DNA from: Pedobacter sp. MR2016-24
GTDB lineage: Bacteria; Bacteroidota; Bacteroidia; Sphingobacteriales; Sphingobacteriaceae
Assembly: GCF_026239655.1 (NCBI RefSeq)
Contig: NZ_JAPIVO010000001.1
Coordinates: 868,001 to 932,000 of the forward strand
Reading direction: 5' to 3'
DNA length: 64,000 bases
The first letter of the stretch is position 1. Every line of letters starts with the position of its first letter. A model generated the notes under the pieces. It was given only the letters and a program-made list of their open reading frames with translations, did no database searches and was not told the DNA's origin. Both the position numbers and the translations under genes were made by a program. This document shows positions 8,062 through 60,771 of the stretch, piece after piece.

Positions 8062-8107
8062 AAATCCTGGTATCCATTTACAAATTAGCAAATGGATACC
8101 AGGATTT
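8062..8107. terminator. Bidirectional hairpin terminator between kup and the permease
   Basis: Perfect 18-bp inverted repeat: arms at 8062-8079 and 8090-8107, loop ACAAATTAGC. The arms begin with AAA and end with TTT on both strands. It lies between two convergent genes. Confidence 0.7.
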
Positions 8108-27228: not shown

Positions 27229-27245
27229 TAAATATGCTGAATCAT

Positions 27246-27280
27246 AAAACAGGCTGCAATCGAAGATTGCAGCCTGTTTT
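27246..27280. terminator. Bidirectional terminator between the PurF-like gene and LysE
   Basis: Perfect 15-bp stem (27246-27260 and 27266-27280), loop CGAAG, with AAAA/TTTT at the base on both strands. The lysE-type stop codon (27279-27281) lies in its right arm. Confidence 0.85.
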
Positions 27281-27905
27281 ATTTATAATATTTGATCACT
27301 ACCTCGATAAATAACCTGATCGCAAAAATGATAATCACGCAGCCGGCAATCCTGTTTAATGCGCGGATATTCTTCTCCTTAATCTTGTAACGGAGTTTGG
27401 CAGCATAAAATGTTTTAAGAAAGTCGACGAATAGCTGTGTAGCCATTGCCACGATAAAGAATACAACCTTCTCCGCCATCGCATAATGCAGTTGTCCTGA
27501 AACAATACCGCCGACCATGATCCAGAACATGAGTGTGGTAGGAGACAACAGGCACATCAGGAAACCTTTGATGATATATCCGCGCTTACGGACCTTGATG
27601 ATTTCTGAGGTTTCGTAATTCACTTTCACTTTATTGATCAGATAATAGAGACCTACTCCCAATAAGAATAAACCACCTATGATGCCGATATAAATATTAT
27701 ATGTGGAATTGTAATCTACAAACTGGGAGCTGAAGATCGTCAGACTAATAAAGATGATGTCACTCAGGATAACGCCTATTGCTAAAGAAAAACCTGCTTT
27801 GAAGCCCTTTTCAATACTGGTCTTTATCATGGAAAAAAAGACGGGCCCGGTTAAAAACGAAAACAAAATACCCGCACCAATCCCTTGTAATATTGCTTCA
27901 ATCAT
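27279..27905 (-). CDS. LysE family amino acid exporter
   Basis: The 208-residue inner-membrane protein has about six hydrophobic helices and the LysE/RhtB N-terminus GIGAGILFSFLTGPVFFSMIKTSIEKGFKAG. A charged cytoplasmic loop (NKVKVNYETSEIIKVRKRG) separates helices 3 and 4, followed by LLSPTTLMFWIMV. The family exports basic or hydrophilic amino acids. It is convergent with the PurF-like gene and the stop lies within the shared terminator. Confidence 0.9.
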   Translation of the reverse strand: MIEAILQGIGAGILFSFLTGPVFFSMIKTSIEKGFKAGFSLAIGVILSDIIFISLTIFSSQFVDYNSTYNIYIGIIGGLFLLGVGLYYLINKVKVNYETSEIIKVRKRGYIIKGFLMCLLSPTTLMFWIMVGGIVSGQLHYAMAEKVVFFIVAMATQLFVDFLKTFYAAKLRYKIKEKNIRALNRIAGCVIIIFAIRLFIEVVIKYYK

Positions 27906-56731: not shown

Positions 56732-59260
56732 ATGGAAGCTAAATTTTCACCACAAGTAAAAGACGTGATTTCGTTTAGCAGGGAAGAAGCCCTGAGATTA
56801 GGTCACGATTACATAGGCGCTGAACATCTTTTGTTAGGTCTGATTCGCGAAGGCGATGGTATGGCCATCAAAATATTGAAATCACTGGGTGTTGATACAT
56901 CTAAATTACGTCGTTCAATCGAAGAAGCTGTAAGAGGTACTTCGAGTGTGACGGTTAATTTAGGCAATATCCCATTGACTAAGCAAGCCGAAAAAGTTTT
57001 AAAAATCACCTACCTTGAAGCTAAGATCTTCAAGAGCGATCTGATTGGTACAGAGCATTTGTTATTGTCTATTCTGCGTGATGATGACAATATTGCTTCT
57101 CAGATTTTATTACAATACAGCATTAACTACGAAGTTTTCAAACAGGAAGTAGAAGTAAATAAAAACGGTTTCAGAGATGAAACTCAGAACAGTGCTTCAA
57201 CTGGTGGTGATGACGATTATCGTGAAGAAGAGAGCTTCAGCAGCCCTAAGAAAGTTTCTGATATCAAATCTAAAACTCCTGTATTGGATAATTTCGGTAG
57301 AGATTTAACCAAAGCAGCGGAAGAAGGACGTCTTGATCCGATAGTTGGAAGAGAGAAAGAAATTGAACGTGTTTCCCAGATTTTATCCAGACGTAAAAAG
57401 AACAATCCGATATTGATAGGTGAGCCCGGTGTTGGTAAATCCGCAATTGCGGAAGGTTTGGCATTACGCATCGTTCAGCGTAAGGTATCGCGTGTTTTAT
57501 TCAATAAACGTGTAGTAACATTAGATCTTGCTTCTTTGGTTGCAGGTACTAAATATCGCGGACAGTTTGAGGAACGCATGAAAGCGGTAATGAACGAACT
57601 GGAAAAATCTACTGATGTGATTTTATTCATTGATGAGATCCATACTATTGTTGGTGCTGGTGGAGCTTCCGGCTCACTTGATGCATCGAACATGTTCAAA
57701 CCTGCATTGGCAAGAGGAGAAATACAATGTATAGGAGCAACTACTTTAGATGAGTATCGTCAGTATATCGAGAAAGATGGTGCATTAGACCGTCGTTTTC
57801 AGAAAGTGATGATCGAACCTGCTACGCCTGATGAGACTATCGAAATACTAAACCGTATTAAAGAGAAATATGAGGATCACCATGGTGTAACTTATACTGA
57901 TGAAGCGATCAATGCTTGTGTGGCATTAACTTCGAGGTATATTACCGACAGGTTCCTTCCTGATAAAGCGATTGATGCTTTGGATGAGGCTGGTTCAAGA
58001 GTGCATTTAACGAACATTCATGTTCCTGAAAACATCATTGATATCGAAAATAAAATTGAAGATATCAAAGTTGAAAAAAATAAAGTTGTTAAAAGTCAGA
58101 AGTATGAAGAGGCAGCGAAACTGAGAGATACAGAGAAAAATCTCTTAGAAGAACTGGAGCGCGCTAAAGCAGAGTGGGAAGCAGAAACCAAAACTAAACG
58201 TTATGTGGTATCTGAAGACAATGTAGCTGAAGTAGTTTCGATGATGACTGGTATTCCTTTACAGCGTGTTGGACAGACAGACAGTATTAAGTTACTGAAT
58301 ATGTACGAGACCGTGGCAGAGAAAATTATTGGTCAGGATGATGCCATTAAAAAACTGACTAAAGCTATCCAACGTACAAGAGCGGGCTTAAAAGATCCAA
58401 AAAAACCTATAGGTTCATTTATATTCTTAGGTCCTACAGGAGTTGGTAAAACAGAATTGGCCAAAGAATTAGCCAGATTCATGTTTGATAGTGATGATTC
58501 ACTGATTCAGATTGACATGTCTGAATACATGGAGAAATTTGCTGTATCACGTTTAGTGGGAGCGCCTCCGGGATATGTAGGTTATGAAGAAGGTGGTCAG
58601 TTAACTGAAAAAGTACGTCGTAAACCATATGCTGTAATTCTTTTGGATGAGATTGAAAAAGCTCACCCTGATGTATTCAATATATTACTGCAGGTTTTAG
58701 ATGAGGGACAACTGACTGATAGTTTAGGTCGTAAAGTTGATTTTAGAAATACAATCATTATCATGACCTCAAATATCGGTGCCCGTCAGCTGAAAGATTT
58801 TGGTCAGGGAGTAGGTTTCTCTACTGCAGCTAAAACTAATCAGGTTGATGCACATTCAAGAGGGGTGATTGAGAACGCATTGAAACGTGCTTTTGCACCT
58901 GAGTTCTTAAACCGTGTTGATGATGTTGTTGTATTCAATACCCTGGGTAAAGATGAGATCTTCAAAATTATTGATATAGAGTTGAAATCATTATTTGGCC
59001 GTGTACATAACTTAGGTTATGAGATCAAATTAACTGATGTAGCTAAAGAATTTATTGCTGATAAAGGTTTCGACAGTAACTTTGGTGCGCGTCCGTTGAA
59101 ACGTGCGATTCAAAAATATCTTGAAGATCCTATTGCTGAAGAAATCCTTAAAGGAGAAATCAATGATGGTGATACTTTAGAGATTGACTACAATAAAGAG
59201 ACAGATTTGATTGTTGTAGAGAATAATACTCCAGGTAAAAAGAAGAAAAGAGAAGCTTAG
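56732..59260 (+). CDS. clpC: ATP-dependent Clp protease ATPase ClpC
   Basis: The 842-residue AAA+ unfoldase has the double Clp N-domain (SREEALRLGHDYIGAEHLLLGL, then LTKQAEKVLKITYLEAKIF), a first ATPase with GEPGVGKS and FIDEIHT, and a central UVR/M-domain with KYEEAAKLRDTEKNLLEEL. The second ATPase has GPTGVGKT and LLDEIEKAHPDVFN, followed by a C-domain ending in a basic tail (PGKKKKREA). ClpC feeds proteins to ClpP for degradation. The short middle domain separates it from ClpB. It is followed by a terminator and an unusual structured region. Confidence 0.96.
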   Translation: MEAKFSPQVKDVISFSREEALRLGHDYIGAEHLLLGLIREGDGMAIKILKSLGVDTSKLRRSIEEAVRGTSSVTVNLGNIPLTKQAEKVLKITYLEAKIFKSDLIGTEHLLLSILRDDDNIASQILLQYSINYEVFKQEVEVNKNGFRDETQNSASTGGDDDYREEESFSSPKKVSDIKSKTPVLDNFGRDLTKAAEEGRLDPIVGREKEIERVSQILSRRKKNNPILIGEPGVGKSAIAEGLALRIVQRKVSRVLFNKRVVTLDLASLVAGTKYRGQFEERMKAVMNELEKSTDVILFIDEIHTIVGAGGASGSLDASNMFKPALARGEIQCIGATTLDEYRQYIEKDGALDRRFQKVMIEPATPDETIEILNRIKEKYEDHHGVTYTDEAINACVALTSRYITDRFLPDKAIDALDEAGSRVHLTNIHVPENIIDIENKIEDIKVEKNKVVKSQKYEEAAKLRDTEKNLLEELERAKAEWEAETKTKRYVVSEDNVAEVVSMMTGIPLQRVGQTDSIKLLNMYETVAEKIIGQDDAIKKLTKAIQRTRAGLKDPKKPIGSFIFLGPTGVGKTELAKELARFMFDSDDSLIQIDMSEYMEKFAVSRLVGAPPGYVGYEEGGQLTEKVRRKPYAVILLDEIEKAHPDVFNILLQVLDEGQLTDSLGRKVDFRNTIIIMTSNIGARQLKDFGQGVGFSTAAKTNQVDAHSRGVIENALKRAFAPEFLNRVDDVVVFNTLGKDEIFKIIDIELKSLFGRVHNLGYEIKLTDVAKEFIADKGFDSNFGARPLKRAIQKYLEDPIAEEILKGEINDGDTLEIDYNKETDLIVVENNTPGKKKKREA

Positions 59261-59284
59261 GTTTTATTTGCTTCGATATAATTT

Positions 59285-59312
59285 AAGGCTGCCTGCAAAG
59301 GTGGCCTTTTTT
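59285..59312 (+). terminator. Terminator of clpC
   Basis: Nine-pair stem with two G-T pairs (59285-59293 with 59300-59308), loop TGCAAA, T-run to 59312, 24 nt after the stop. The stem contains the octamer CTGCCTGC, which occurs again in IR1. Confidence 0.8.
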
Positions 59313-59322
59313 GGTTAAGATT

Positions 59323-59409
59323 AAAAAAAATAGCTTGTCATATTTTCACCTGCCTGCTTTTTGCGCTGCAAAAACCAGAAGGTCGAAAATATGACAAGCT
59401 ATTTTTTTT
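59323..59409. repeat. Long inverted repeat IR1 with structured loop
   Basis: The arms 59323-59347 and 59385-59409 are perfectly complementary over 25 nt (A8 and T8 at the base). The 37-nt loop (59348-59384) folds further: ACCT with AGGT, CTG with CAG, and TTTTTGC (59358-59364) with GCAAAAA (59368-59374) around GCT. With its T8 it could terminate transcription in both directions, but it is far larger than needed, since clpC already has a terminator. Confidence 0.9.
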
Positions 59410-59631
59410 AGATCCTGCAACCTTGGATAATGTACAAGGGATTCTGCAAACCTGTATGGTGTTTATAGATACGGAAAATATAGACGTTACTATTAGGGTA
59501 AAATGTAAGGTGTCTGATACTGTATGAATATATGGATGCATACATGATAGTATGCTTTTCGTGCAAACTGAAAATGATCTGATCGTCGCATATAGAACTA
59601 TGCGTGGTGGATAATCCCAAGATGATCTTAA

Positions 59632-59712
59632 GCTGGAAAGAACCTTTGTTTTGTGGCCTTCTAAATTTGCGCAGCAAATTCAGGCAGACACAAAACAAAG
59701 GTTCTTTCCAGC
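59632..59712. repeat. Long inverted repeat IR2 with a loop related to that of IR1
   Basis: The arms 59632-59655 and 59689-59712 are perfectly complementary over 24 nt and unrelated in sequence to the IR1 arms. The 33-nt loop contains GCCT/AGGC and AATTTGC/GCAAATT around a three-base tip. Read on the minus strand the loop has CTGCCTG, then the small hairpin, then AGAAGG, the same order as in IR1 on the plus strand. There is no T-run after it, so it is not a classical terminator. Confidence 0.9.
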
Positions 59713-59718
59713 CAGATT

Positions 59719-60771
59719 TCAGAACAAACTCATTTGGGAACCCGGAACAGCAAACAGCTTTGAATTTAATACTAGAGGCCTAATATTCAGCTGATTCAAT
59801 CTGCAATGCAGTTTAAATGTATCCCTGATCAGCTTAGCAATGTTGCCTCCCCCCATCATACGGTCTCCAAAGCGGCTGTCATTAACCGCCCCTCCGTGGC
59901 AGGACTGAATCGCATGCCATACTTTATCAAACCTATCCGGATAATTACTCCGCAACCAATCTTCAAATATCGAAGCCACTGCGCCATTCAATCGTACAAC
60001 TGTGTAGCCTGCACTTCTTGCACCGGCATCCGCTACAGCTTTCAGAATGTTCGGAATTTCATGATCACTTAATCCGGGAACCAGAGGTGCAACCATAACA
60101 CCAGTGGGTATTCCTGCCTTACTCAGTTCTTCTACCACTTTTAATCTCTGTTTTGCAGTTGCTGTTCTGGGTTCCATCTTCAAACGCAGGTCCTCGTTCA
60201 GGCTATTGATTGAGATGTAAACCATGCAAAGATCAAGTCTTGCCATTTCTTTTAAGATATCCAGGTCACGTAAGATTAATGCATTTTTCGTAATCATTCC
60301 AATTGGCTGTTTATATTCCAATGCGATTTCCAGGAGTTGCCGCGTAATTTTGTATTGCCGCTCTGCAGGTTGATAACAATCTGTATTGCCGGATAAGGAT
60401 ATGGTTGTGGCATCCCAGCCTTTGCGTTCCAGGAAATTCCTGAATAATGCAGGGGCATCTTTTTTGACTATAATTTTGCGTTCAAAATCCAGCCCCGCAC
60501 TAAAGCCCCAGTATTCGTGTGAATTTCTCGCATAACAGTAAGTGCAACCATGTTCACACCCCTGGTAGGGGTTAAGTGAGTAGTCCATTCCTACATCAGG
60601 ACTGGTAACCTTATTCACGACTGACTTTGATTTGCCAGTTATAAATGTAGTTTTTACATTCTCTACTTCCCAGTCATCGATCCCTTCGTCATGTTCCTGA
60701 ACGTAGGTATTTGCTGAAAATTTATTGTGCGGATTGAATTGGGCGCCTCTGCCCTTAAGATAGGTATCCAT
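59719..60771 (-). CDS. PA0069-family radical SAM protein (SPL-like)
   Basis: The 350-residue protein has the cluster motif YQGCEHGCTYCYARNSHEYW (CX3CX2C), then SLSGNTDCYQPAERQYKITR and PIGMITKNALILRDLDIL, the pattern of the PA0069/Rv2578c family, related to spore photoproduct lyase. The N-terminal KGRGAQFNPHNKF is also typical. The reaction is not established to my knowledge, though a DNA-repair link has been suggested from homology. Its gene ends 7 nt from IR2. Confidence 0.9.
   Translation of the reverse strand: MDTYLKGRGAQFNPHNKFSANTYVQEHDEGIDDWEVENVKTTFITGKSKSVVNKVTSPDVGMDYSLNPYQGCEHGCTYCYARNSHEYWGFSAGLDFERKIIVKKDAPALFRNFLERKGWDATTISLSGNTDCYQPAERQYKITRQLLEIALEYKQPIGMITKNALILRDLDILKEMARLDLCMVYISINSLNEDLRLKMEPRTATAKQRLKVVEELSKAGIPTGVMVAPLVPGLSDHEIPNILKAVADAGARSAGYTVVRLNGAVASIFEDWLRSNYPDRFDKVWHAIQSCHGGAVNDSRFGDRMMGGGNIAKLIRDTFKLHCRLNQLNIRPLVLNSKLFAVPGSQMSLF

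Follow-up and report, generated by a model that had tools for sequence, protein, structure and literature searches.

Histone mRNAs of eukaryotes end in a hairpin with a short stem and a known protein partner. In bacteria, bidirectional intrinsic terminators are long hairpins between convergent genes, flanked by an A-run and a T-run, whose stem may vary as long as it remains paired. REP and BIME repeats with RAYT, 20-40 bp long, are dispersed palindromes that often stand head-to-head behind genes, and REPs sit mostly between convergent and co-directional ORFs (PMC3733652). Among RNAs of Bacteroidota, FopS (RF04319) comprises paralogous sRNAs and is a multi-copy family ending in a terminator hairpin (PMC11697453), while Pedo-repair RNA (RF01715) is listed as a candidate structured RNA for Pedobacter (PMC2864571).

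Upon analysing a window of 64,000 nucleotides (the whole stretch of DNA under analysis) from Pedobacter sp. MR2016-24, we found two long hairpins, IR1 and IR2, of an undescribed, covariation-supported family that resembles two-way transcription stop signals with a conserved, oriented tip that ordinary ones lack. Besides this apical module, which contains an internal loop, the stems of about 25 bp and the missing T-run of IR2 set these hairpins apart from known bidirectional terminators. They differ from REPs and BIMEs in their size of about 86 nt, in combining a conserved tip with a variable stem, in bearing scarcely any GTAG or CGTC tag and in the absence of a Y1 transposase from this genome. 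FopS, in turn, is built of a single-stranded seed and a terminator, and IR1 scored 18.2 bits against its cut-off of 56. Pedo-repair RNA gave no match to IR1 or IR2 up to an E value of 10, and it reached its cut-off neither in the window nor in 20 of the fetched family loci. No other family of Rfam 15 reached its gathering cut-off there either, consistent with the statement in an initial annotation of this DNA that no named family is known to have this core. Matches of IR1 and IR2 to miRNA families, all below cut-off, were set aside as expected of any long hairpin. In a search of open-access papers, we recognised no description of a tip-hairpin family. The likeness to the histone hairpin, a conserved mRNA 3' end read by a protein, is one of analogy only.

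Two hairpins between clpC and a convergent gene

The gene clpC, an ORF of 842 aa called at 56732-59260 on the plus strand (the gene name fits the sequence by eye), is followed by a terminator-like hairpin at 59285-59308 (plus strand) and, 61 nt behind the stop codon, by IR1. The first of these hairpins, which is also present in several relatives that have no long hairpin, agrees with the claim of the initial annotation that clpC has its own terminator; hence, IR1 would be a second one. IR1 (59322-59410, plus strand) consists of perfect 26-bp arms (59322-59347 and 59385-59410) with an A-run at the 5' foot and a T-run at the 3' foot. IR2 (59632-59712, minus strand) consists of perfect 24-bp arms (59632-59655 and 59689-59712) with neither run and lies 6 nt 3' of the stop of a convergent minus-strand ORF of 350 aa (59719-60771), radical-SAM-like by eye. 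Both were thus located where the initial annotation had put them, with a T-run, as it had said, in only one of the two and with arms unrelated in sequence to each other. The loop core that it had described in both was likewise confirmed by pattern matching and alignment: an apical module of CTGCCTG, an inner stem and AGAAGG occupies 59350-59382 on the plus strand in IR1 and, with the same order of parts, 59657-59687 on the minus strand in IR2. In each hairpin, CTGCCT...AGAAGG reads in the sense direction of the gene upstream of it, and since the two genes converge, the two hairpins have opposite orientations.

Folding energies of IR1 and IR2 were 11-13 s.d. below those of dinucleotide shuffles on either strand. 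Such strong folding of both strands would also be expected of a DNA site that folds single-stranded for recombination or integration. We consider this extremely improbable, as the orientation of the hairpins tracks transcription, no transposase or cassette gene was seen by eye in four regions, and a blastn search with 59262-59718 retrieved nothing among phage or plasmid records.

A covarying hairpin family with a common tip

A relaxed form of the core pattern matched 15 places in this genome and none when the pattern was read backwards, and it was absent from 98 other genomes (59 of the genus and 39 of the class). While conservation of the letters that the pattern requires is a given in these matches, the arms are invisible to it, and the arms paired into long hairpins in all 15. 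In an alignment of the 15 members over 87 columns, 93.8% of cells were paired in the named structure and 22 of 35 pairs had changed on both sides, yielding a covariation score of 0.519 compared to 0.114 in shuffles, none of which scored as high, and at most 0.134 when slid. The consensus tip of these members comprises a C-G and a U-G pair, a 2x2 internal loop (GC versus AA/GA), a C-G and a U-A pair, and the inner stem. At E<=1.2e-4, a covariance model, R1, found 26 distinct places in this genome, among them IR1 (G000:C1:927323-927409) and IR2 (G000:C1:927630-927714), as well as one further place at E=0.2; R1 was trained on 15 of its 26 places, and its search scored 150 of 3690 first-look candidates and returned 48 rows with both strands counted. 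A stricter hairpin script found none at six of the R1 places (L009, L010, L140, two sites of L181, and L182), indicating that some members are imperfect. The core shared by IR1 and IR2 is not a product of chance, and the initial annotation understated its observation: the two hairpins are members of a larger family. A public collection was scanned with the core pattern as well, for which the pattern was too loose, and one match had long arms among the 111 core matches listed.

Distribution and inheritance in related species

Across the genus, R1 matched 24 of 145 genomes at E<=0.001, with a single row in 14 of them and with 16 to 28 rows in G018, G120, G153, G155 and G164. The recurrence of the core and hairpin proposed as a check by the initial annotation is therefore found both in this genome (15 pattern matches, 26 model places) and in relatives. 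Hairpins of related species had other inner stems and mostly shared 5'-CUG(C/G), a small hairpin, and AAGG or AGG-3'. A second model, R2, was built from 35 of 103 listed hairpins, and 27 of its 29 stem pairs had changed on both sides, with no shuffle scoring as high; compensating change in the arms, which the initial annotation had implied, thus appears in both alignments. With at most 30 candidates scored per genome and a threshold of E<=1e-4, R2 had matches in 24 of the 145 genus genomes, and in 12 of these it gave at least 12 rows. Among 399 family genomes, it matched 16, all of this genus, and gave no match in 24 other genera sampled in the family, in a scan of 11 candidates per genome under strict filters that weak members may escape. 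In the searches made, the hairpin family, as recognised from sequence, is restricted to one genus.

As a site picked independently of any hairpin, we also examined the region downstream of clpC in the 30 genomes that matched best. A long tip-bearing hairpin was present in eight (two hairpins in this genome, G000), the tip being edged 5' by C(T/C)(G/A) and 3' by AAGG, AATG or AGAAGG, whereas two genomes had short-loop hairpins and 20 had no hairpin. The site was empty in G018, G120 and G164, though such hairpins abound elsewhere in these genomes, indicating that the element is dispensable there. The idea of the initial annotation that the tip is conserved while the arms vary is supported. Between species, the CUG-like and AAGG-like edges are kept and the inner stem is not conserved, and part of the tip conservation seen in the models and counts comes from the way members were found and oriented.

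Upon comparing orthologues at 28 loci in eight groups (27 of the 40 fetched loci plus L261), we found that close species have inherited their hairpins in place and that the stems have undergone paired changes. In pairs whose flanks were less than 30% different, 26 of 876 arm pairs carried two-sided and 43 one-sided changes, counts in which species pairs overlap and events are not independent. At one locus compared between G023 and G126, the tip was identical, while the arms had diverged by 33% (10 double and two single changes) and the flanks by 34%. At two G018/G164 sites, arms had been replaced far more than the alignable flanks; a general hypervariability of the arms, seen at these two sites, was not borne out in the close clade. 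Tip pairs of at least 80% identity within one genome were present in G018 (71 of 120), G120 (56 of 171) and G000 (44 of 210) and absent from G019 (0 of 21), G013 (0 of 28) and G107 (0 of 36). Tips have thus undergone some spread or homogenisation in some lineages, whose near-identical tips at many loci are not accounted for by descent in place alone.

Similar tips at many loci (71 of 120 pairs in G018, 44 of 210 in G000) are what a REP/BIME-like repeat would produce, if a mover that recognises the tip spread copies into convergent intergenic DNA and the stems then drifted pairwise. The head-to-head pairs in 19 of 24 multi-hairpin regions, the occupation of the clpC site in some genomes and not in others, and the preference of REPs for gaps between convergent and co-directional ORFs (PMC3733652) fit this reading too. 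We nevertheless regard it as unlikely. No Y1 transposase was found in this genome or in G018, G120, G153, G155, G161 and G164, while such an enzyme is present in 82 of the 145 genus genomes; GTAG/CTAC stood at 1 and CGTC/GACG at 4 of 139 stem feet; and direct repeats at the hairpin edges, as a target duplication would leave, were as frequent as in one shuffled control (n=139). Orthologous sites are kept in close species, in which tips at different loci rarely match (none of 21 pairs in G019 or of 28 in G013). The stems would also have to be copied, yet they differ. Conserved ends as in MITEs were also lacking in the R1 and R2 alignments, in which the arms are not conserved. The suggestion of the initial annotation that these hairpins are a non-autonomous mobile element or a single-strand integration site is thus not supported, given the lack of a Y1 transposase in this genome and of target duplication, the near absence of the tags and the sites kept in close species; RAYT/IS200 mobility by Y1 enzymes likewise found no support, in view of their absence here, the lack of edge duplication and in-place inheritance in close species. 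A mover of another kind may nonetheless be at work.

Genus-wide, Y1_Tnp and tip hairpins tended toward mutual exclusion, the hairpin-rich genomes being without Y1_Tnp except for G006, which has 13 R2 rows and one Y1 transposase; this is probably a clade effect.

Genomic position, tip orientation and a proposed two-way terminator

A model-free search for hairpins with arms of at least 18 bp, covering the window and 20 stretches of 20 kb each (464 kb of this genome in all), found seven, all between convergent ORFs and five of them tipless, whereas convergent ORFs bounded 21 of the 186 gaps of at least 50 bp in the same sequence. That all seven are convergent and five tipless suggests that long hairpins share a common task at such places. 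Two perfect 18-bp hairpins with short loops in the window (8062-8107 and 27244-27282), tipless and between convergent ORFs, are probably plain bidirectional terminators.

The tip allowed 139 distinct hairpins from the fetched loci to be oriented, with ties dropped and a few possible non-members among them. Those flanked by an ORF on both sides (n=136) were convergent in 105 cases, compared to the 21 of 186 background gaps, co-directional in 29 and divergent in two; an earlier count with other cut-offs (n=101) gave 83, 15 and 3, both counts being based on ORFs from a crude script and on orthologues counted separately, and hence not made up of independent cases. Of the 139, 119 were flanked by an A-run and a T-run, IR1 among them and IR2 not. 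The contention of the initial annotation that the hairpins fit a recognised structure better than plain terminators hence stands in so far as they are more than terminators with random loops, but draws the contrast too sharply: most look like terminators with an added tip, with IR2, which lacks a T-run, as an exception. Set against a terminator reading are IR2 itself, with neither run, the terminator-like hairpin that clpC already has, the empty clpC site of G018, G120 and G164, and the 29 co-directional and two divergent hairpins among the 136.

The tip was sense to the gene whose stop is nearer in 87 of the 105 convergent hairpins, with a median distance of 32 nt to that stop, and in 21 of the 29 co-directional ones. 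In hairpins taken as single, some of which have a partner missed by the script (e.g. L003 and L012), the tip was sense to the nearer-stop gene in 33 of 40 (p=2e-5), and in regions with several hairpins the order was plus then minus, i.e. head-to-head, in 19 of 24. This orientation of the tip points to RNA, in which the apical module is probably recognised. Among 3639 arm pairs, 166 were non-Watson-Crick, and G-U (52) was not clearly more frequent than A-C (34; p=0.066), as would suit a stem functioning on both strands; selection of the stem in the sense RNA only was rejected on this ground.

Plain bidirectional terminators, with loops alike only by descent from a few copies and a tip without function, would account for the five tipless long hairpins between convergent genes in the 464 kb and for inner stems that vary between species. 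We find this improbable, given the biased orientation of the tip, the persistence of CUG-like and AAGG-like edges across species whose inner stems are unrelated, the clpC site included, and the G023-G126 comparison, in which the tip was unchanged while arms and flanks had diverged by a third. The near-perfect duplex of about 25 bp under an internal loop and a second stem, positioned 3' of stops, could alternatively serve RNase III processing or 3'-end protection, with the internal loop placing the cut or blocking exonucleases and termination being secondary; this seems to us quite improbable, as the A- and T-runs at the feet would be unneeded and G-U pairs are not favoured in the sense strand.

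Several further arrangements were noted separately. Tandem tip hairpins of the same orientation occur at L189 (G155:C82; three, with a spacing of 173 bp) and L188 (G155:C148; two, about 202 bp), and at L220 (G018) two tip hairpins flank a degenerate short-unit array (e.g. GCATGATGCAGAAGCATGG) at about 1650-2300. Palindromes of another kind, outside the tip-hairpin family, occur at L231 (about 1943; G023) and L232 (about 1865; G013); these are short-looped, perfect 31-bp hairpins whose edges are similar in the two species. Outside the hairpins, no 10-mer was common to more than four loci of one genome, and a composite unit with a conserved spacer was rejected accordingly; gene cargo between paired hairpins was rejected as well, since four regions inspected by eye held ordinary-looking genes only.

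With somewhat more confidence than doubt, we interpret the hairpins as bidirectional intrinsic terminators that form a clade-specific family and bear a conserved apical module, which is probably bound at the mRNA 3' end. We propose that RNA polymerase arriving from either convergent gene would be halted by the stem, which is about 25 bp long and usually has a 5' A-run and a 3' T-run, and that this stem would be selected for pairing, such that its letters drift in pairs. The apical module of 5'-CUG, a small hairpin, and AAGG or AGG-3', predicted to form a small internal loop, would be constrained in sequence as well as in orientation, which would place it at the 3' end of the nearer gene's transcript, where a putative protein or RNA may bind the tip and either aid termination or protect or process the 3' end. 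The family itself, the covariation of its stems, the conserved tip, the placement between convergent genes, the biased orientation and the inheritance in place were observed here; termination, transcription of the tip and a binding partner are what we infer. More tentatively, and with doubt prevailing, CUG...AAGG may be a dedicated mRNA 3'-end recognition site for an RNA-binding factor that has co-evolved with lineage-specific tips, mounted on two-way terminators such that either convergent gene could have its own sense tip, in a logic like that of the histone mRNA 3' stem-loop.

Overall, the hairpins form a multi-copy structured family with strong covariation and without an Rfam entry, confined to one genus in the searches made, and close species offer a natural series of stem and tip changes in which recognition of the tip can be tested. 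If the tip is recognised, intrinsic terminators would bear factor-binding sites on mRNA 3' ends, and the tip, used as bait, could reveal a global 3'-end factor of Bacteroidota.
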